Shown here one piece after another: positions 40,595 to 54,803 of a stretch of DNA of 64,000 bases. The stretch spans positions 1,984,001 to 2,048,000 of the forward strand of contig NZ_CP046072.1 of NCBI RefSeq assembly GCF_017357825.1, written 5' to 3'. Made by a program: the position numbers and the translations under genes. The notes beneath the pieces were generated by a model that saw only the letters and a program-made list of their open reading frames with translations, did no database searches and was not told the origin of the DNA. Position 1 is the first letter of the stretch, and every line of letters starts with the position of its first letter. Origin of the DNA: Sulfurimonas aquatica. GTDB lineage: Bacteria > Campylobacterota > Campylobacteria > Campylobacterales > Sulfurimonadaceae.

Positions 40595-40843
40595 CTATTT
40601 TTTACACTTGCTAGCAGAGAGGTTCTTTTTATTATTATCTATAAACTTAGCCCCAATACCCTTAACTGACGTTAAGTCATTTACGCTTTTAAAACAATGC
40701 TTTTTTCTATAAGTAACTATTGCTGTAGCTTTTTTTGCACCTATGCCTTTAAGTGTCATCAACTCTTTCTCTTTTGCAGTGTTAATATCTACTGCTCCAA
40801 ACAAGAAACTCGCCCCTAATGCTACAATCGCTAAAATTTTCAT
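40595..40843 (-). CDS. comEA: ComEA-like periplasmic helix-hairpin-helix DNA-binding protein
   Basis: An 82-residue exported protein: signal peptide MKILAIVALGASFLFG, then VDINTAKEKELMTLKGIGAKKATAIV and a second hairpin SVKGIGAKFIDNNKK. ComEA proteins bind incoming DNA in the periplasm during natural transformation and act as a ratchet. It is a minimal form without the membrane anchor of Gram-positive ComEA. It is divergent from a gene for a secreted DNA ligase. Two relatives lie within 2.6 kb: the fused domain at 41961 and the pseudogene at 43198. Confidence 0.85.
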   Translation of the reverse strand: MKILAIVALGASFLFGAVDINTAKEKELMTLKGIGAKKATAIVTYRKKHCFKSVNDLTSVKGIGAKFIDNNKKNLSASKCKK

Positions 40844-41034
40844 TTTAACCCCTTTAATTTTATTTACAAGTATTTTACATATATTTTTAATTAATCAAAA
40901 AAAATATTTCATGTTGTCAAAATAATTTGAATTTTTTTATAATAATCGAGTAGTTTAGTTACATATTTTTAAACATATTATCATTTTATTTTATGTTTTA
41001 CTATTTCATTTTTTTAGATTGATATACTTTTTAG

Positions 41035-41856
41035 ATGAAATCACTTATTTTAACTTTACTCTTTTCTACCCTTTTATTTGCTCAAAAACCTGATTTATTG
41101 CTCTTGAGTAACTATGAAGAGGAACAAAATATCAATGGTTGGTATATGAGTGAGAAGCTAGATGGTGTGAGAGCTTATTGGGATGGGAATAAACTTATTT
41201 CGAGGAGTGGCAAACTGTTTGCTACTCCCGACTTTTTTACAAAAGATTTTCCAAAGCACAACCTTGATGGTGAACTCTGGAGTAAAAGGGGCGATTTTGA
41301 GGCTATAGTTTCCATTGTAAATCAAAAGTCACCTCACCCAGGATGGGACAATATCACTTATAATATTTTCGAAGTTCCACAAAGTGATGGAAATTTAACA
41401 ACAAGACTTTCCAAAGTTATACAAAGCAACTATGTAAAATTAATACTACAGATAAAAATACAAAACAAAGAACATCTAAAAGAATTTTTACACAAAATAG
41501 AAAGACTCGGAGGAGAAGGAGTAGTCATACGGGATGGATCACTCCCCTACTTCACTGGACGAGGGAAAAATGCTTCTAAAGTAAAAAGCTACATTGATGA
41601 TGAATGTATTGTTGTTGGATACAACAGAGGCAATGGAAAGTTTCAAGATATGGTCGGTTCTCTCTCTTGCAGACTAAAAGATAAAAGAGTTATTAAGATA
41701 GGAAGTGGATTGAGTGAAAAAGAGCGAGTAAATCCTCCAAAAATTGGAACACTTATAACTTTTAAATATTATGGTTTGACTTCAAAAGGAAATCCTAGAT
41801 TTCCCGTGTTTATGAGAGTAAGAGAATTAACTACTTCGACTGACTCCCATGAGTAA
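41035..41856 (+). CDS. Secreted ATP-dependent DNA ligase (LigE type)
   Basis: The 273-residue ligase has a signal peptide (MKSLILTLLFSTLLFA), so it acts in the periplasm. Nucleotidyltransferase motifs are complete: I, SEKLDGVRAYW with the adenylated Lys; Ia, RSGK; III, LDGELW; IV, EGVVIRDG; V, KVKSYID. A small OB domain follows (GYNRGNGKFQDMVGSL). Periplasmic minimal ligases of this kind occur in naturally competent Gram-negatives, where joining of incoming or extracellular DNA has been proposed. It lies between a comEA-like gene and the HHH/ZorA-like gene. Confidence 0.9.
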   Translation: MKSLILTLLFSTLLFAQKPDLLLLSNYEEEQNINGWYMSEKLDGVRAYWDGNKLISRSGKLFATPDFFTKDFPKHNLDGELWSKRGDFEAIVSIVNQKSPHPGWDNITYNIFEVPQSDGNLTTRLSKVIQSNYVKLILQIKIQNKEHLKEFLHKIERLGGEGVVIRDGSLPYFTGRGKNASKVKSYIDDECIVVGYNRGNGKFQDMVGSLSCRLKDKRVIKIGSGLSEKERVNPPKIGTLITFKYYGLTSKGNPRFPVFMRVRELTTSTDSHE

Positions 41857-41960
41857 ACTAATCTTAAAAATCAAGTTTCTCCTTCAGAAAATGACAAGCA
41901 CATTCTTTGTACAATTTTAATAATTAAAAAGCACTAAAGCAAAGTCTCTAAGGACATCAT

Positions 41961-42545
41961 ATCTTAAAATATATAACACTATTTTTCTTAACTATCTCTC
42001 ACTTGTTTGCTCTTGTAGATTTAAACAATGCTACAGCTGCTGAGCTTTTACAATTAAATGGTATAGGAAAAGCAAAATCTCAAAAAATTATAAACTACAG
42101 GGAACTAAATACTTGCTTTAAAAGTTTAGATGAACTTGGAAATATTGAAGGTATTAGCAAGAAGTTAATCGCTAGCAATAGATCTAATATAACTCTTGGC
42201 ATTTGTGCAATAGTTAAAGATAAAGAGAACACTTCAAGTTCAGCCATAAAAGATGTTCTGCTAGACCCTGTAAATATCATCTTTGTCATATTTATTTTTA
42301 TACTTGCACTACTTGATATAAAAACAGGTAAAGACTTTAAGAGTCAAATCGTAAGCATTGGCGTACTAGGTACATTTGTTGGTATATTTATAGGTCTGCA
42401 AGGTTTTAATCCTACTGATATAGTGAATAGTGTCAATGAAATTCTAGTTGGGCTAAAAACAGCATTTTTCACCTCTATAGTTGGTATGGGAGTGTCAACA
42501 ATACTCTCTATCACTCAAAAGCTAAAGGCTAACTCTGAAAACTAG
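41961..42545 (+). CDS. Helix-hairpin-helix domain fused to a MotA/ZorA-like membrane channel subunit
   Basis: The gene encodes a ComEA-type pair of helix-hairpin-helix motifs (VDLNNATAAELLQLNGIGKAK, about residues 18-70) followed by three hydrophobic segments. The core GVLGTFVGIFIGLQGF and GLKTAFFTSIVGMGVSTIL is that of MotA/TolQ/ZorA proton-channel subunits. No ATG starts the frame. TTG at 42003 would cut the signal peptide; ATC at 41961 has AAGGA six bases upstream and gives ILKYITLFFLTISHLFA, a good signal peptide. The HHH part would face the periplasm. Length (about 194 residues) is far below ZorA, which carries a long cytoplasmic tail. The ZorB-like gene follows and overlaps. Confidence 0.65.
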   Translation: MLKYITLFFLTISHLFALVDLNNATAAELLQLNGIGKAKSQKIINYRELNTCFKSLDELGNIEGISKKLIASNRSNITLGICAIVKDKENTSSSAIKDVLLDPVNIIFVIFIFILALLDIKTGKDFKSQIVSIGVLGTFVGIFIGLQGFNPTDIVNSVNEILVGLKTAFFTSIVGMGVSTILSITQKLKANSEN

Positions 42546-43194
42546 TAATAGCGAATGGATGAGTATATCTGACATGATGTCAGGACTCATGCTAGTTTTT
42601 TTGTTCATAGCTATAAGTTTTATGATAGAGGTTGAAAAAGAAAAGCAAGGAATGAAAGATATAGCCATCTCATACAGAGACACAAAAGCAAATCTAAATG
42701 AAGCTCTTTACTCTGAGTTTGAAAATGATCTGGAAGCTTGGGGTGCTACTATCACACAAGAAAACAGCATCACATTCAATTCTCCAGAAGTTCTGTTTGA
42801 AGTAAGTAAAAGTAATATCAAAAATGACTTTAAAACCATTTTGGAAGAGTTTTTCGTAAGATATGTAAAAGTTTTAACTTCAAAAGAGTATAAAGATGAG
42901 ATAAAAGAACTAAGAGTAGAGGGACACACATCTGATAAGTGGGGAAATATCCTATCTGAAAAAGAGATATATCTTAAAAATATGCAACTTTCACAAAGCC
43001 GCGCCTATGAAGTTCTCTCCTACTGTTACTCTTTAGAAGATGAAACTATAAAAGAAAATAGAACTTGGCTAGAAAAACATTTCAGAGCGAATGGAATGGC
43101 GTTTTCTAAGTTAAAAAAGAATGATAAAGCCAGACGTGTTGAGTTTAGCATCCAGATGAAAAGTGAAGATAAGGTTTATGAGATATTAAAATAG
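42535..43194 (+). CDS. MotB/ZorB-like protein with OmpA-type peptidoglycan-binding domain
   Basis: One N-terminal membrane helix (SISDMMSGLMLVFLFIAISFM) with the EWMSISD-M-SGLM pattern of ZorB/MotB stators is followed by a coiled linker and an OmpA-like domain (ELRVEGHTSDKWG, LSQSRAYEVLSYC). ATG at 42559 would lose the conserved Glu-Trp before the helix; CTG at 42535 has AAAGG six bases upstream and restores it, so I prefer CTG. With the previous gene it should form a PMF-driven 5:2-type stator anchored to peptidoglycan. No ZorC, ZorD or ZorE gene is nearby. The upper part of the helix lacks the Asp usual in flagellar MotB, although SISD supplies one. Confidence 0.7.
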   Translation: MKTSNSEWMSISDMMSGLMLVFLFIAISFMIEVEKEKQGMKDIAISYRDTKANLNEALYSEFENDLEAWGATITQENSITFNSPEVLFEVSKSNIKNDFKTILEEFFVRYVKVLTSKEYKDEIKELRVEGHTSDKWGNILSEKEIYLKNMQLSQSRAYEVLSYCYSLEDETIKENRTWLEKHFRANGMAFSKLKKNDKARRVEFSIQMKSEDKVYEILK

Positions 43195-43197
43195 CCT

Positions 43198-43373
43198 ACT
43201 TTAACAATCTAATCTACATCCTTAAAGCAATGTATTTGCCCATAGACAACAATATCCTCTGCTTTTTCTTACCAATGCCTTTGAGAGTATTAAGCTCTTT
43301 TTTAGTTCCATTATTTATATCTACTGCAAAAAAATTGACTCATTCCTAAGAGTAAAATTATTATGATTTTCAT
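43198..43373 (-). pseudogene. Decayed comEA-like gene
   Basis: From an ATG at 43373 the minus strand encodes MKIIIILLLGMSQFF. After a frame change it reads AVDINNGTKKELNTLKGIGK, then after another change AEDIVVYGQIHCFKDVD and a stop. This parallels the intact ComEA at 40595 (FGAVDINTAKEKELMTLKGIGAKK). At least two frameshifts and a stop inactivate it. One frameshift is at a T/A homopolymer after the signal peptide. Confidence 0.75.
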
Positions 43374-45044: not shown

Positions 45045-45335
45045 ATGAAGCAAGGCTATGTCTATATAATGACAAACAAAAAAGATGGAACACTCTATGT
45101 AGGTGTAACTAGTAACCTTGTAAGACGAGTTTATGAACATAAAAACGGATTAGTAGATGGTTTTACAAAAAAATACAACTTAAAACAGCTAGTATATTTT
45201 GAAGTATATGACGATATTAGTGAAGCTATAAAACAAGAGAAGCAGTTAAAAGCAGGTTCAAGGAAGAAGAAGAAGGTAGAGCTAATAGTTTCTGTAAATG
45301 AGTCTTGGGATGATTTGTATGGGAGTATAACCTAG
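45045..45335 (+). CDS. GIY-YIG family endonuclease, small (UPF0213-like)
   Basis: A 96-residue single-domain nuclease. The family signature is GYVYIMTNKKDGTLYVGVT, with the catalytic Arg in NLVRRVYEHK and the Glu in EAIKQEKQLK. There is no DNA-binding extension. A possible -10 TACAAT lies at 45008-45013. REP-like arrays lie directly on both sides, and the TAG stop is part of the first unit-B repeat (CTAGACTGCC), so gene and repeat are physically joined. This suggests, but does not prove, that the nuclease moves or maintains the repeats. Confidence 0.88.
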   Translation: MKQGYVYIMTNKKDGTLYVGVTSNLVRRVYEHKNGLVDGFTKKYNLKQLVYFEVYDDISEAIKQEKQLKAGSRKKKKVELIVSVNESWDDLYGSIT

Positions 45336-45432
45336 ACTGCCACGGCTAAAGCCTCGCAGTGACGGAGGGTTGTGTCATTGCGAGGGACGAAGCAATCTCA
45401 CAAACCCATCATTGCGAGGGACGAAGTAATCT
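45331..45432. repeat. REP-like hairpin array 3, downstream of GIY-YIG gene
   Basis: One intact unit B (GACTGCCACGGCTAAAGCCT then CGCAGTGACGG) is followed by two unit-A copies with the GAGGGACGAAG variant. It continues into TCTACTCTGTGCAGAACGGTA, which resembles the link TCTACTTTGCATAGAACAGT in array 4. Between here and 45607 only the ugd tail and AT-rich sequence are seen. Confidence 0.85.
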
Positions 45433-45452
45433 ACTCTGTGCAGAACGGTACA

Positions 45453-45521
45453 TTAGAGGAAACTCTAGCTGATGTTATAGATAAAGTATATACTCGTGAT
45501 ATTTTCCAAAGTGATAGTTAG
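45453..45521 (+). pseudogene. ugd fragment (C-terminal end)
   Basis: The frame reads [20 protein letters not shown] then DS and a stop, against [20 protein letters not shown] then DS at the end of the intact Ugd (50900). It lacks a start. About 100 codons of the gene that should lie between it and the fragment at 44249 are gone. Confidence 0.85.
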
Positions 45522-45606
45522 AGGTTTTTGAAATCTTTTTTACCCTCAATAGAATAGTTAAAATTATTAGAATTTATAAAGTAGGTATTTGACTACCTAT
45601 AAATAG

Positions 45607-46457
45607 GATATAGTAACTTATCTAATACCGACTAAAGGAAGTCACGATTTAAGTAGGCGCGCACATATTTTAAAAATGCATGGAATGAGTTTTAGAGAGT
45701 ATTTAGAACTTATGTTAGATATAGAACTTCCAATCATTAAACTCGAAGATATATTAAAAAGTCATGAAGATATTATTTTTGATATAACGGCTAAGCTTGA
45801 AAAACTAGATGTAAGAGTTATCCCCTTGTTTAAAAGATATTTAAAAGTTGGTTATTATCCATATTCATTAGATATTGATGATGACGATGTATTTATTGAT
45901 ACTTTAAAACAAAATATACATATATCAATCTCTTACGACTTACTGTCCGTTTACCCTAGCTTGGATGGCAATAGTATAAAAAAATGAATTTACTTTTGAA
46001 AATTATAATGCACTCAGTTCCTTTTGTGCCTGTAATTGAAAAACTAAAAACTACTCTAGAAATTGGTGATGGAAGAACACTTAAAGAGTATTTTATAAAA
46101 CTTGAAGATGCCGGAATCATAAAACTTTTAATGAAGTCATCTTCAAAAGGGCTCCAGCAATTAGAAAAACCAGAAAAAATTTATCTAGATAATACCAATT
46201 TACTAGGTATTGCAGAAAGTAATATTGGGACACTCCGAGAAACATTTTTCCTAAATGCTGTAGCAGAAGTTCACAATGTAACTTATCCAAAAAAAGGAGA
46301 TTTCTTGATAGACAATAATTTCTTATTTGAAGTTGGTGGACGAAATAAGGGGTTTACTCAAATAAAAGATATTCCTAATAGTTACCTTGCCTGTGATGAT
46401 CTTGAAATAGGTTATGGTAACAAGATTCCACTTTGGTTTTTTGGCTTTTTATACTAG
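45607..46457 (+). pseudogene. DUF4143-type AAA ATPase, 5' truncated and frameshifted
   Basis: The first frame (45607-45985) reads SHDLSRRAHILKMHGMSFRE then IPLFKRYLKVGYYP, typical of the middle of AAA_14/DUF4143 ATPases. The second (from 45984) continues the same protein with LLLKIIMHSVPFVPVIEKL, LEDAGIIKLL and the RETFFLNAVAEV block. The shift is at a run of seven A (about 45977-45983). The N-terminal Walker A part is absent. These proteins are common accessory ATPases of uncertain function. Confidence 0.75.
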
Positions 46458-46486
46458 AAAACATAATAGCTGCATATATAGATCTG

Positions 46487-46549
46487 CATGAGCTAATTAG
46501 TTTGACAAATAGCTCATATAATGATACGATTATTAAATTAATCAGCTCA
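46487..46549. promoter_or_regulatory. Promoter with repeated AGCTCAT-type operators before fic
   Basis: ATGAGCTAATTA (46487-46498) and TTAATCAGCTCAT (about 46537-46549) form an inverted repeat with one mismatch; a further TAGCTCAT lies between them. The set surrounds TTGACA with TACGAT 17 bases on, a plausible promoter. The right arm abuts the GAGG ribosome site of the Fic gene, so autoregulation is possible. Confidence 0.5.
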
Positions 46550-46559
46550 TGAGGTATAA

Positions 46560-47693
46560 ATGAAAAATAAACAACAGTGGATTTGGCTACATCAGGACTA
46601 TCCAAAGTTTCACTATAACATTCATAAACTTCTTCCTAAAGTTACACAAATAGCTCAAAATATTGGTCAAGTAAAGGCTCTTATCAGTTTACTTGATACA
46701 GATTCTCAGAACACTATAAAAGTAGATCTCTATACTAATGAAATAGTATCAACTTCTGCGATTGAAGGAGAGAAGCTCTCAAGAGAGAGTGTAAGGTCAT
46801 CAATAAGAAAAAAATTAGATTCACCATTTGATACAGTACATGATAAGTCAACTGATCACACCGATGCACTTGCTGATATACTTATGGATACACTTTTAAA
46901 TGCAGCACCTCTTGAGTTAGAGCGTTTACATAAATGGCATATTGCACTTTTATCTCATACACCAAGTAATTTTAACAAAGTCAAACTTGGAGAATTTCGA
47001 GACTATGACGATATGCAAATTGTCTCTGGACCGATAGGCAAAGAGAAGGTACATTATGTAGGGTTGCCCCATGGAAGAATTAGTGAGGACATTAAGTCCT
47101 TTATAGAATATATAAATAACTCTAAAGACGATATGTATATCAAAAGTGCAGTAGCTCATTTATGGTTTGTAACTATCCACCCTTATGATGATGGTAATGG
47201 TAGAATAGCAAGAATCATAAGTGATTATATAGTATCTCAAAGTTTTGGATTAGAATATAAATATTTTTCTATTTCTACAGCTATTGCGAGTGATCGTAAA
47301 AATTATTATGAAAAGTTAGAAATGTCTCAAAACCTTACAGATAATCCAAGCCTAGATTGCACATCTTGGATAGCTTGGTATTTAGATAGATTTAATGATT
47401 CACTTCAAGAAACACTAAATTCTATAGATAAAGTTATGAGTAAAACAAAATTTTGGGATAAGGTAAGACATGTTACTCTTAATCAACGCCAAATAAAAGT
47501 ACTTAGTAAATTATTAGAATATAATGCAGGTGAGTTTCAAGGTTCTCTAACAACTAAAAAATATGTAGCAATAACAAAAACTTCATTAGCAACTGCAAAA
47601 AGAGATATGCAAGAGCTTCTAAAATATGGATGCTTATATCAAATTGAAGGCACACAAGGAAGAAATATTAAATATGACCTTCTGTATGAATGA
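46560..47693 (+). CDS. Fic-domain protein with N-terminal inhibitory helix (class II), possible AMPylase
   Basis: The 377-residue protein has a Fic core with HPYDDGNGRIARI, which fits HPFxxGNGR with the catalytic His. The upstream inhibitory motif is STSAIEGE around residue 65, whose Glu blocks ATP binding until released. An N-terminal DUF4172-like region (WIWLHQDYPKFHYN) and a C-terminal winged-helix-like segment (TTKKYVAITKTSLATAKRDMQEL) complete a typical layout for large bacterial Fic proteins with DNA-binding tails. Fic enzymes AMPylate hydroxyl side chains; the target here is unknown. It appears intact amid decayed neighbours, and its promoter has repeated operators. Confidence 0.88.
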   Translation: MKNKQQWIWLHQDYPKFHYNIHKLLPKVTQIAQNIGQVKALISLLDTDSQNTIKVDLYTNEIVSTSAIEGEKLSRESVRSSIRKKLDSPFDTVHDKSTDHTDALADILMDTLLNAAPLELERLHKWHIALLSHTPSNFNKVKLGEFRDYDDMQIVSGPIGKEKVHYVGLPHGRISEDIKSFIEYINNSKDDMYIKSAVAHLWFVTIHPYDDGNGRIARIISDYIVSQSFGLEYKYFSISTAIASDRKNYYEKLEMSQNLTDNPSLDCTSWIAWYLDRFNDSLQETLNSIDKVMSKTKFWDKVRHVTLNQRQIKVLSKLLEYNAGEFQGSLTTKKYVAITKTSLATAKRDMQELLKYGCLYQIEGTQGRNIKYDLLYE

Positions 47694-50913: not shown

Positions 50914-52293
50914 ATGACAAATATAATCCTATGCGGTGGTAGCGGAACAAGACTTTGGCCTATCAGTAGAACACTTATGCCGAAGCAGTTCGTAAAGTTA
51001 TTTGACTCAAAGTCACTCTTCCAACTTACAGTAGAGCGAAACTCTAAAGTATGTGACTCTCAGTTTATAGTCTCTAACTCTGAACAGTACTTCTTAGCAC
51101 TAGACCAACTAGAAGAGTTACATAAAGATAACAACAGATACCTTCTAGAACCAGTAGGAAGAAACACGGCTCCAGCAATTGCATTGGCATGTATGGCACT
51201 TGATAAAGATGAGATAGTTTTAGTAACTCCATCAGACCACCTTATAAAAGACGAAGAAGAGTATGCAAAAGTCTTAAAAAAAGCACAAGCATTAGCAGGT
51301 GAAAACAACTTAGTGACTTTTGGTATTACACCATCATTTGCTGAGACTGGATTTGGTTATATTGAGTCTGGAGAAGAAAACTCAGTTAGAGCCTTTCATG
51401 AAAAACCAGACAAACAAACAGCACAAAGCTATCTTGATGCAAGTAACTATTACTGGAACAGTGGCATGTTCTGTTTTAAAGCAGGAGTATTTTTAGATGA
51501 ACTTCAAAAATACTCACCTGAGATATATGAAGCATCTCTAAAAGCACTTAATAGTGCTAAAGATGAAACTACTCTCACCAGAATCAAACACGAAGATATG
51601 ATAGCTATCCCTGAAGATAGTATAGACTATGCAGTAATGGAAAAATCTTCAAAAGTAAAAGTTGTTCCATCCAACATAGAGTGGAGTGATGTAGGAAGCT
51701 TTGACTCTCTTTATGAAGAACTCCCACAAGATGAAAATGGAAATACCATAAACGAAAACCATATATCTATTGACTCAAAAAACAATCTCATCTATGGTAA
51801 ACAGAGAAAGATAGCTACAGTAGATATAGAAGACCTTATTATCGTAGATACTGGTGATGCTCTACTCATAAGTAAAAAAGGCTCATCCCAAAAAGTAAAA
51901 GAGATAGTTAAAGAGGTAAGAAAAACTACAGAACTTCATAACATTCACCTAACAGGTCATAGACCATGGGGAACTTACACAATTTTAGAAAGTACTCCAG
52001 GCTATAAGATAAAACGAATAGTTGTAAAACCAGGTAAACGCCTAAGCCTTCAAAAACACTTCCATAGAAACGAACACTGGATAGTAGTGAGTGGAACAGC
52101 AACAGTAACTGTGGGAGATGAGACAAAACTCATTAGACCAAACGAGTCTACATATATAAAGATGGGTGAACTTCATCGTCTCTCAAATGAGGGAAAAATA
52201 CCCGTTGTTCTTATCGAAGCACAAGTGGGTGAGTATACTGGGGAAGATGACATCGTCCGAATAGATGATGATTATCAAAGAGAAACGCCATGA
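50914..52293 (+). CDS. manC: Mannose-1-phosphate guanylyltransferase / mannose-6-phosphate isomerase
   Basis: This bifunctional type II enzyme makes GDP-mannose. The N-terminal nucleotidyltransferase has GGSGTRLWPISR and FHEKPD; the C-terminal cupin isomerase has LQKHFHRNEHWIVVSGTA with metal-binding His residues. At 459 residues it has the usual length. It supplies the GDP-mannose used by gmd and gmm, the next genes. Its stop overlaps gmm by four bases. Confidence 0.95.
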   Translation: MTNIILCGGSGTRLWPISRTLMPKQFVKLFDSKSLFQLTVERNSKVCDSQFIVSNSEQYFLALDQLEELHKDNNRYLLEPVGRNTAPAIALACMALDKDEIVLVTPSDHLIKDEEEYAKVLKKAQALAGENNLVTFGITPSFAETGFGYIESGEENSVRAFHEKPDKQTAQSYLDASNYYWNSGMFCFKAGVFLDELQKYSPEIYEASLKALNSAKDETTLTRIKHEDMIAIPEDSIDYAVMEKSSKVKVVPSNIEWSDVGSFDSLYEELPQDENGNTINENHISIDSKNNLIYGKQRKIATVDIEDLIIVDTGDALLISKKGSSQKVKEIVKEVRKTTELHNIHLTGHRPWGTYTILESTPGYKIKRIVVKPGKRLSLQKHFHRNEHWIVVSGTATVTVGDETKLIRPNESTYIKMGELHRLSNEGKIPVVLIEAQVGEYTGEDDIVRIDDDYQRETP

Positions 52294-52739: not shown

Positions 52740-53861
52740 ATGGCAGATAAAAAAGTAGCACTTATAACAGGGATAACAGGACAAGATGGTTCATACTTAG
52801 CAGAATTTTTACTAAAAAAAGGTTATATCGTTCATGGTGTAAAAAGAAGAAGTTCACTCTTTAACACCGATAGAATTGACCATTTATACCAAGATGTGCA
52901 TGAAAACAATGTTAACCTGCATCTTCACTTTGGAGATATGACAGACTCTATGAACCTTACTCGTATTATCCAAGAGACTCAACCTGACGAGATATATAAT
53001 CTTGCAGCAATGAGTCATGTAGCAGTTAGCTTTGAAACGCCAGAGTATGTAGCAAATGCAGATGGAACAGGGACACTTAGAATACTTGAAGCTGTAAAAC
53101 TTCTAGGCCTGACAAACAAAACTAGAATCTATCAAGCATCTACAAGTGAGCTCTACGGAAAAGTTCAAGAGACTCCACAAAGTGAAACTACTCCTTTTTA
53201 TCCAAGAAGCCCTTATGCAGTAGCAAAGATGTATGCATACTGGATAACAGTAAACTATAGAGAAGCTTATGGAATGTTTGCATGTAACGGTATCCTTTTT
53301 AACCATGAGTCTCCTGTTCGTGGAGAGACATTTGTAACAAGAAAGATTACTCGTGCCGCTTCTAAGATAGCTTTAGGACTTCAAGATAAACTCTACCTTG
53401 GAAACCTAGATGCTAAACGCGATTGGGGACATGCAAAAGACTATGTAAGAATGATGTGGATGATACTTCAAGCAGATGAGCCAGAAGACTGGGTAATAGC
53501 AACAGGACAAACTACAACTGTTAGAGATTTTGTAAAAATGGCGTTTAAATATGCAGGTATAGAGCTAGAATTTAAAGGCAAAGGTGTAGATGAGAAAGCT
53601 TATGTAGTAAGTTGTTCAAACCCTGAGTACCAAGTAGAGATAGGCAAAGAAGTAGTAGCAGTAGACCCAAGATACTTCAGACCTACAGAAGTTGACTTAC
53701 TCTTAGGTGACCCAAGTAAAGCAGAGCAAAAACTAGGCTGGAACAGAGAATACAACTTAGAAGAGTTAGTATTTGATATGATGAAGTCTGACTTGAAACT
53801 CATGACAAAAGATGTTTACCTTCAAGAGGGTGGATATAAGACTATGAGTTATTACGAGTAG
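52740..53861 (+). CDS. gmd: GDP-mannose 4,6-dehydratase
   Basis: Gmd converts GDP-mannose to GDP-4-keto-6-deoxymannose. The 373-residue SDR enzyme has the NADP motif [19 protein letters not shown], the catalytic STSELYGK and [15 protein letters not shown] (Tyr/Lys), and [17 protein letters not shown]. Length is normal. The product can go to fucose through the next gene or to the 3,6-dideoxy sugar colitose through the aminotransferase-fold gene after that. Confidence 0.97.
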
Positions 53862-53873
53862 GATTAGAATAGT

Positions 53874-54803
53874 ATGCGAAAAATATTGATAACTGGTTCG
53901 AATGGAATGGTTGGAAGAAATATAGTTGAATTTGAAAAATCAAAAAACTATACCCTGCTGACACCAACAAGCTCTGAGCTTAATCTTTTAGATAGAGCTT
54001 CAGTAGATAAGTATTTACAAATGAATAAACCAGATATTGTAATCCATTGTGCAGGTATTGTTGGTGGGATACAGGCCAATATGGCACAACCTGTAAAGTT
54101 TTTAGTAGATAATACACAAATGGGTCTCAATATTGTTATGGGCTCATATCAATCAGGTATAAAGCAGTTTATAAATATGAGTAGTTCATGCATGTATCCT
54201 AGAGAAGCTGTTAATCCTTTGGGTGAAGAGCTTATTTTAAAAGGCGAACTTGAACCAACAAATGAAGGTTATGCCATTGCAAAAATTACTTCAACAAGAC
54301 TCTGTGAATATATCAATAGAGAAGATAGTACTTATGAATACAAAACAGTAATACCATGTAACCTATATGGTAAGTATGATAAGTTTGATCCAAAACATTC
54401 TCACATGCTTCCAGCAGTAATTAAAAAAATACATGAAGCTAAAGTAGCAAATGTTGATAGTGACATTTGGGGAAGTGGAGAAGCTAGAAGAGAGTTTATG
54501 TATGCTGAGGATTTAGCAGATTTTATCTACTATGCCCTTGAAAATTTTGCTCAAATGCCACAGAATATAAATGTTGGCTTAGGTCACGACTATACAATCA
54601 ATGAGTATTATAAGGCAATAGCAGAAGTAATAGGTTTTAAGGGTGAGTTTATACATGACCTAACTAAACCAATAGGTATGAAACAAAAACTTATAGATGA
54701 CACTAAGCTTAAAGAGTTTGGTTGGAAATATAAGACATCTTTAGAAGATGGGATTGAAAAAATATATAAATATTATTTAGAAGAGGTAATAAATGACAAG
54801 TAG
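53874..54803 (+). CDS. fcl: GDP-L-fucose synthase-like epimerase/reductase (Fcl or ColC)
   Basis: The 309-residue SDR has GSNGMVGRNIVEF, the HCAGIVGGIQANMAQP segment and GYAIAKITSTRLCEY with Tyr/Lys. SSSCMYPREAVNPLGEE is highly typical of Fcl. It would epimerise and reduce GDP-4-keto-6-deoxymannose to GDP-L-fucose. ColC, which makes GDP-L-colitose, is a close homologue and here a colD-like gene follows directly, so the product could be either sugar. The start of the next gene overlaps its end by 11 bases. Confidence 0.88.
   Translation: MRKILITGSNGMVGRNIVEFEKSKNYTLLTPTSSELNLLDRASVDKYLQMNKPDIVIHCAGIVGGIQANMAQPVKFLVDNTQMGLNIVMGSYQSGIKQFINMSSSCMYPREAVNPLGEELILKGELEPTNEGYAIAKITSTRLCEYINREDSTYEYKTVIPCNLYGKYDKFDPKHSHMLPAVIKKIHEAKVANVDSDIWGSGEARREFMYAEDLADFIYYALENFAQMPQNINVGLGHDYTINEYYKAIAEVIGFKGEFIHDLTKPIGMKQKLIDDTKLKEFGWKYKTSLEDGIEKIYKYYLEEVINDK

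Follow-up and report, generated by a model that had tools for sequence, protein, structure and literature searches.

A tail-less, Zorya-type stator carrying a ComEA-type helix-hairpin-helix domain in Sulfurimonas

Zorya motors have been proposed to sense envelope damage and to signal through the tail of ZorA to a nuclease; TolQR and ExbBD do envelope work; and in Campylobacter, Cj0011c is reportedly a ComEA-type periplasmic DNA-binding protein. According to the accessible part of the source on ZorAB, the tail of known Zorya systems is cytoplasmic and is required for anti-phage defence (PMC11890865). A survey of non-flagellar stators describes, in its accessible portion, A subunits bearing additional domains at the N- or C-terminus whose function is unknown, DUF3450 and DUF2341 among them, and that portion mentions no DNA-binding-type head (PMC12505986). 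Here we describe a stator that carries one. Its two genes, hhh-zorA and zorB (together HHH-ZorAB), lie in a 64,000-nucleotide stretch of Sulfurimonas aquatica (NZ_CP046072.1, positions 1,984,001 to 2,048,000; a 2.85 Mb genome in two contigs), hereafter the window, and join a ComEA-type helix-hairpin-helix (HHH) domain to the membrane core of a type II ZorA. HHH-ZorAB is a tail-less HHH stator, very probably derived from Zorya.

The unit shares with type II Zorya the ZorA membrane core, a ZorB2 partner and a common larger ZorB clade. In contrast to type II Zorya, which has a long ZorA tail and the ZorE protein, it lacks both (at most about 10 residues of tail) and adds a signal-like N-terminus and an HHH domain on the putative periplasmic side. 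HHH-ZorAB is therefore not a type II Zorya system, although its motor parts are of the same kind. Neither is HHH-ZorA a ComEA, although it carries a ComEA-type domain, for the domain is joined to a stator subunit. The open-access literature yielded no mention of the unit, most subscription papers lying outside that search.

Domains, fold and topology of HHH-ZorA and ZorB

The unit comprises the following features (coordinates in the window, strand in brackets):

41950..41954 (+): Shine-Dalgarno-like AAGGA, 6 nt upstream of the ATC, read from the sequence
41961..41963 (+): ATC, putative start codon of hhh-zorA
41961..42545 (+): the fusion gene hhh-zorA, 194 codons and a stop
41961..42011 (+): residues 1-17, a hydrophobic signal peptide or N-terminal anchor that the structure model shows as a helix over 2-16; weak codon-level constraint
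42012..42206 (+): ComEA-type HHH domain (HHH_3), residues 18-82; invariant K39 and C52/C82
42255..42542 (+): residues 99-194, the type II ZorA membrane core without a tail; the model places helices at 103-122, 127-147 and 154-191
42559..43194 (+): zorB; one transmembrane (TM) segment with a proton-carrier-type Asp (SISD), a long helix and an OmpA-like peptidoglycan-binding domain

An earlier note on this DNA, made from its letters and reading frames, had described the pair at 41961-43194 as a ComEA-type HHH unit joined to a MotA/ZorA channel core, with a ZorB-like, OmpA-domain partner, and profile searches bear this out. Residues 18-78 of HHH-ZorA match HHH_3 of Pfam (E 3e-15) and residues 91-185 match ZorA2 of PADLOC (E 2e-17), whereas the downstream protein matches ZorB2 (E 4e-80, PADLOC). 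The ComEA-type domain model TIGR00426 scores 54.4 bits, over its cut-off of 53.1. The full-length models are not reached: HHH-ZorA obtains 56.4 of 152 bits against the comE model TIGR01259 and 48.5 of 700 bits, far under the full-length cut-off, against the ZorA2 model of NCBIfam. Pfam MotA_ExbB falls just short of its gathering cut-off (19.8 versus 22.9 bits), and a MotA_ExbB search of the source genome listed seven other places, HHH-ZorA not among them. ZorB also matches chain 8vvi_A (6.6e-40; 2.3e-50 with a profile), its OmpA domain exceeds the Pfam cut-off (28.1 versus 27.2 bits), its score against NCBIfam ZorB2 is 167 bits, below the cut-off of 400, and its single-chain structure model has a predicted local distance difference test score (pLDDT) of 83.5.

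An AlphaFold2 model of HHH-ZorA built with 24 sequences (pLDDT 79.2, predicted template-modelling score 0.45) points to the same two halves. Its HHH superposes on Geobacillus ComEA (8dss) with a root-mean-square deviation (rmsd) of 0.9 over 65 residues (Z 12.0), and its core superposes on the type II ZorA of Sulfuricurvum kujiense (8vvi_C) with an rmsd of 1.6 over 91 of 99 residues (Z 11.3). The corresponding Foldseek E-values are weak (2.3e-03 and 7.4e-02), and the second-look fold search was limited to Foldseek's own candidates. Tol/Ton chains (TolQ, ExbB) score nearly as high in that search, with Z up to 10.7 and rmsd above 3; the ZorA assignment of the core rests on sequence together with rmsd. 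TolQ-TolR and ExbB-ExbD likewise have an A subunit with three TM helices and a comparable fold (Z about 10 to 11, rmsd 3 to 4); HHH-ZorA differs from TolQ and ExbB in going to ZorA2 by sequence and in having a B partner with an OmpA domain.

In all 24 aligned orthologues the protein ends about 10 residues past the third TM helix, confirming that the cytoplasmic tail is absent, and in all 24 the HHH is fused to ZorA, unlike the separate protein ComEA. With three TM helices and a cytoplasmic C-terminal side, the N-terminus of ZorA should be periplasmic. Since a signal-like N-terminus and the HHH precede the first TM helix, the HHH would lie outside whether the N-terminal segment is cleaved or not. 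A periplasmic HHH, which the earlier note had also proposed, is accordingly argued from the signal-peptide-like N-terminus, the ZorA topology and an invariant cysteine pair, C52 and C82, present in 24 of 24 fused domains; all 28 stand-alone ComEA-like proteins of the genus contain at least two cysteines. We regard the anatomy of HHH-ZorA and ZorB described here as close to certain.

Both the HHH and the ZorA core are under purifying selection. Among the ten closest pairs, which share members and in some of which dS exceeds 1, the ratio of nonsynonymous to synonymous substitution rates (dN/dS) ranges from 0.07 to 0.19 in the HHH and from 0.03 to 0.08 in the core; over all pairs pN/pS is 0.31 for the HHH, 0.20 for the core, 0.58 for the signal region and 0.79 for the linker. 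The accessible part of a study of Vibrio cholerae ComEA reports that K63 is the main DNA contact, assisted by K62, and that changing K63 to Ala brings DNA uptake under detection (PMC3879209). With the second G of the hairpin motif GIG set as G60, K39 of HHH-ZorA is the positional equivalent of K63 and is invariant (24/24). HHH-ZorA thus shares with ComEA the GIG first hairpin and the K63-equivalent, as well as the cysteine pair of the genus ComEA-like proteins, and departs from it in being less basic on average and in having mostly Ala at the K62-equivalent. The second hairpin of the fused HHH reads GIS or GVS in 24 of 24 sequences.

Start codon of hhh-zorA

The earlier note had placed a gene at 41961, and the frame is real; the codon at that position is, however, ATC and not a canonical start. 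In the window, the stretch from the upstream stop to the HHH holds a single canonical start, a TTG at 42003 that lies inside the signal peptide. We counted as plausible any ATG, GTG or TTG that keeps the signal peptide, in the range from codon -24 to codon -13 ahead of the HHH motif, omitting the contig-cut locus L133. By this measure nine of 26 orthologues possess a plausible start and 17 do not, and 11 have no ATG, GTG or TTG anywhere from the upstream stop to the HHH. The stand-alone comEA-like genes, by comparison, have a canonical start in 28 of 28 cases (25 ATG and 3 TTG, taking the first in range). ATC or ATT occupies exactly codon -18 in 15 of the 17 orthologues without a canonical start, and the same codon is ATG or GTG in L125, L129, L131 and L134. 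Other arrangements occur: L132 shows ATC at both -21 and -20, a frameshift in the signal peptide of L127 puts its ATC one base out of frame, and L130 has an ATG 11 codons further upstream. By eye, AGG-type motifs precede the ATC or ATT in orthologues.

These regularities suggest that hhh-zorA starts mostly at AUC or AUU, with ATC as the probable start in the window. A pseudogene or a sequencing error at the start was considered and is ruled out by ATC or ATT at the same place in orthologues together with the weak codon constraint of the signal region. The AUU start of infC serves control by initiation factor 3 (IF3), and infC of the same genome, checked as a control, has a start that may be either TTG or ATT. 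In Streptomyces, the GTC start of sigR is repressed by IF3, according to the accessible part of the source (PMC5472188). The start of hhh-zorA may likewise be deliberately weak. Gene calling restricted to ATG, GTG and TTG would be expected to cut off all or part of the HHH half, and the silence of the literature on this unit may be due to AUC and AUU starts that hide the HHH from gene calling.

Descent, distribution and surroundings

In a midpoint-rooted tree of ZorB (42 rows), the 26 ZorBs paired with HHH-ZorA group in one clade (support 99/97) that sits inside a larger group of type II-like ZorBs; loci whose ZorB was off-motif or outside the fetched DNA, many from Helicobacter among them, were left out. 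ZorE is missing from the HHH lineage: a ZorE query matches none of 27 HHH-ZorAB loci (the 26 named loci described below and, as a further one, the whole window) at E 0.01, a threshold at which six of nine control loci are hit, and none of 135 genus genomes at 1e-5, where the genome-level control is positive in five of ten entries, two of them one genome. The query does match L137, L138, L140, L148, L175 and L173 (33-67% identity, self excepted) and finds nothing in L049, L050 or L051. The ZorA proteins of L138, L140 and L148 are 414-440 aa long with the tail present, and in L138 PADLOC recognises ZorA2, ZorB2 and ZorE2. Given a type II core and ZorB, tailed and ZorE-bearing relatives, and the absence of tail and ZorE from the HHH lineage, descent from type II Zorya is the simplest history. 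HHH-ZorAB very probably arose in this way, with the direction of change (loss of tail and ZorE, gain of the HHH) being the one that most simply accounts for the sequences. What counts against a fully drawn history is the fork that joins the HHH clade, the Sulfurovum-type ZorBs (L138, L140, L146, L148 and L083, of which L140 and L083 are the same genome) and L175/L050/L051: it is unresolved and names no nearest relative, and a sister relationship of the HHH clade to Sulfurovum was withdrawn on that account.

Several other ZorAB arrangements were seen in the compared genomes. Sulfurovum-like genomes carry type II Zorya operons (L138:5983-8830, L148:160-2928 and L140:5974-8888, the last with ZorE in two pieces). 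At L049:8806-12224 (G049) a ZorA of 890 aa with a long tail is paired with ZorB in a genome without a ZorE match, flanked by genes that look by eye like exbB/exbD, truB, ispE and smpB, and long ZorA frames recur in the same family. Short ZorA/ZorB pairs (210 and about 230 aa) with no HHH or ZorE match occur at L050:8894-10148 (G005) and L051:9634-10888 (G004), adjoining PLD-like and lipoprotein-like genes (by eye).

A near full-length fusion is present in eight of 60 genomes and in 20 of 135 genus genomes, the window's own included in each, with two more of the latter in pieces; a scan of named Campylobacterota genomes yields it in 26 of 69 loci, one of them cut by a contig end. These three sets overlap. 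Twenty of the 26 named loci are titled Sulfurimonas, the rest bearing wider or other Campylobacterota names. Among 397 genomes of the phylum, 33 matched at 1e-24, full-length in G000 (the source genome) and G107 only, both of this genus; 30 others match in the ZorA core and one, G496, in the HHH alone. Recurrence in other genomes makes the fusion more than a chance event. None of the three outcomes that the earlier note had named as fatal to its reading was seen, these being a 41961 gene unrelated to MotA, TolQ or ZorA, a neighbourhood confined to this one genome, and an HHH predicted to be cytoplasmic. A phage- or plasmid-borne unit was considered and set aside: the seven loci found in IMG/VR all match the ZorA core alone, and none of 23 PLSDB records spans 80% of the query. 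Broken copies of hhh-zorA exist in L127 (the frameshift in the signal peptide), L135 and L136, which appear to be the records G009, G147 and G153 of the genus scan.

zorB is present in 26 of the 27 loci, L125 being without it, and lies close downstream of hhh-zorA in 25 of those 26. Every one of the 25 loci among L111-L136 that have a ZorB carries the transmembrane Asp motif SI[SA]DMM; as this motif was also the search pattern for the ZorB alignment, the invariance of the Asp within that alignment is true by construction. The exception in spacing is L129, where an insertion of about 3.5 kb separates the two genes (L129:4158-7660) and contains what looks by eye like an integrase fragment.

The remaining features of the window are these (the last five found by tblastn with locus representatives, the four genes also by their frames):

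40595..40843 (-): stand-alone ComEA-like HHH protein, 82 aa; HHH_3 E 5.8e-18; signal-peptide-like N-terminus
41035..41856 (+): LigE-type ATP-dependent DNA ligase; matches PRK09125 (DNA ligase E) at 2.1e-98, exceeding the curated cut-off
43201..43373 (-): decayed comEA copy, legible in fragments over two frames in three-frame translation; partial tblastn match
from 48739 (+): partial galU-like match, at a place where every frame is shorter than 150 aa
49701..50900 (+): ugd-like gene
50914..52293 (+): manC-like gene
52740..53861 (+): gmd-like gene
53874..54803 (+): fcl-like gene

The ComEA-like protein, the ligase and the dead comEA copy had each been recognised in the earlier note, and each identification holds; the ligase may well be secreted, judging from its signal-like N-terminus and its family. 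That note went on to join them with the stator into a single five-gene functional cluster and suggested a survey of HHH-ZorA beside LigE. The fusion does recur, whereas LigE adjoins it in only two of 27 loci. LigE is found in 69 of 135 genus genomes, 14 of these among the 20 carriers of the fusion. We fetched 20 ligE regions from 19 of the 69 LigE genomes, picked for long contigs and kinship (L206 is the genome of L114): 18 contain a glycan-locus gene or GT2, 15 mqnC, 14 pgi, 12 pglB and eight a comEA-like gene of the stand-alone kind; a frequent arrangement is mqnC-GT2-pglB-(galU)-ligE-pgi-(comEA)-manC-gmd-fcl. LigE and comEA thus belong to a surface-glycan locus that also occurs in regions without HHH-ZorAB, and on this ground, together with the rarity of adjacency, we reject the five-gene cluster as stated. 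In the accessible text of its source, LigE of Neisseria is linked to extracellular DNA and biofilm (PMC10799422); in the window it is encoded next door to HHH-ZorAB as a separate gene, a neighbour rather than a conserved partner. The ComEA-like gene at 40595..40843 is probably part of the glycan/ligE/comEA locus and not of the motor, and both genes are mostly inherited scenery.

A match to a glycan-locus gene lies within 7 kb of HHH-ZorAB in 21 of the 27 distinct loci (22 of 28 rows if a genome listed twice is counted each time), a raw count in which L112, L115, L127 and L135 rest on GT2 only and the window on its partial galU match only. The largest neighbour cluster, of GalU type, occurs in ten of 27 loci (one member being rmlA-like) and lies directly upstream of the unit in L116, L122, L126 and L130. 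A Pfam scan of ten neighbour-cluster representatives assigned nine, the ligase fragment of L114 being left without a family. Either HHH-ZorAB works for this locus or it has merely landed there, the latter suggested by the presence of LigE and comEA there without HHH-ZorAB.

Three side observations concern these surroundings. A gene assigned to the Uma2 family of putative restriction endonucleases (PF05685, from a scan of one representative) lies near HHH-ZorAB in eight of 27 loci (L118, L119, L121, L124, L128, L129, L132 and L134). Downstream in the window, at 45045-47693, are accessory-looking genes named by eye as a GIY-YIG-like small protein, an ATPase-like fragment and a Fic-like protein. 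Far from the window pair, the same genome encodes a second pair, of MotA/ExbB type (384 aa frame) and OmpA type (376 aa frame), at G000:C1:2597921-2599814 (L007, L041, L053).

Possible roles of HHH-ZorAB

By analogy with solved ZorAB structures (PMC11890865, in the part available), this stator derived from type II Zorya would place five HHH-ZorA around two ZorB; ZorB would be anchored to peptidoglycan and ion flow would turn the ZorA ring. The five HHH heads could then form a DNA-binding crown on the periplasmic face, and the complex would grip, or be switched by, DNA crossing the periplasm, either a phage genome or transforming DNA. Its effect would come from restraining or twisting that DNA, or from opening an ion path, and not from a nuclease reached via the tail. 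The role we favour is that of an accessory gatekeeper of incoming DNA, defence-like rather than an uptake motor. ComEC is present in 123 of 135 genus genomes, all 20 HHH-ZorAB carriers among them, whereas the unit itself is patchy; this, with its apparent origin in a defence system, leads us to prefer a gate over an uptake motor, and the patchy distribution and broken copies likewise fit an accessory gate better than core competence. Taken whole, a Zorya-derived stator serving as a defence-like gate is a tentative proposal that we hold at somewhat less than an even chance, and we are similarly guarded as to whether HHH-ZorAB acts on DNA, which is quite possible though short of probable. The more specific picture of a rotary complex with five periplasmic DNA-binding heads, a winch or clamp anchored in peptidoglycan that seizes, twists or stalls DNA crossing the periplasm as an inside-out Zorya motor and whose dose is kept low via an infC-like AUC/AUU start, is speculative and on balance rather unlikely.

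Several observations weigh against a gate acting on DNA. The motor acting on DNA of the earlier note remains an inference, and the fused HHH is less basic on average than stand-alone ComEA: its mean net charge is +1.8 (n=24, range -1 to 6), against +5.1 (n=25, range 1 to 12) for stand-alone ComEA-like proteins gathered with a pattern requiring GIG or GVG in both hairpins, or +5.2 (n=28) with the pattern relaxed, although these ranges overlap with that of the fused set. Of 24 fused domains, 22 have Ala at the K62-equivalent. GIS in the second hairpin also occurs in three of 28 stand-alone proteins, for which reason it was dropped as a strong mark of the fusion. PsbU and pseudopilins of the type II secretion system are among the fold matches, indicating that HHH folds serve without DNA too. 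The usual surroundings of the unit are glycan genes, with no defence-gene neighbourhood shown. Finally, since known Zorya needs its tail, the missing tail and ZorE speak against defence of the conventional kind, and defence here would have to work otherwise, at the periplasmic face or by ion flow.

Some of these same points suit a motor that belongs functionally to the surface-glycan locus, in which the HHH would be a protein-interaction module coupling the stator to the envelope or glycan machinery. The raw count of glycan matches within 7 kb, the GalU-type cluster (in four loci directly upstream), the lower charge of the HHH and the TolQ and ExbB chains among the fold matches all fit such a role; but no glycan gene is constant, the LigE/comEA locus exists without HHH-ZorAB and may be a mere landing site, and K39 and the first hairpin are kept. 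We consider an envelope motor unlikely. A helper in natural transformation, a ratchet or winch adding ion-driven pull to ComEA-type capture, could draw on the ComEA-type domain with its K63-equivalent, on ComEC in every carrier and on LigE and comEA in the same locus. This comes near to the pulling of DNA for transformation once suggested in the earlier note, which we do not favour, as the search turned up no HHH-ZorAB in the majority of genus genomes that have ComEC, several carriers also retain stand-alone comEA-like genes, and the apparent origin is a defence system; a helper of this kind seems about as unlikely as an envelope motor. That the gene is a fossil Zorya, accidentally fused and drifting, is very improbable. 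The three broken copies, the insertion between the genes in L129, the want of a ZorB beside L125 and the weak start codons could be read as decay, but the low dN/dS of both halves (with the reservations on those pairs given above), the one old clade and the Asp motif in each of the 25 ZorB-bearing loci are not what drift would leave.

Whichever role applies, the HHH-ZorAB lineage constitutes a natural experiment in which a Zorya-type motor is found apart from its effector and with a DNA-binding-type domain on the outside. It makes testable whether such a stator can do mechanical work on DNA.

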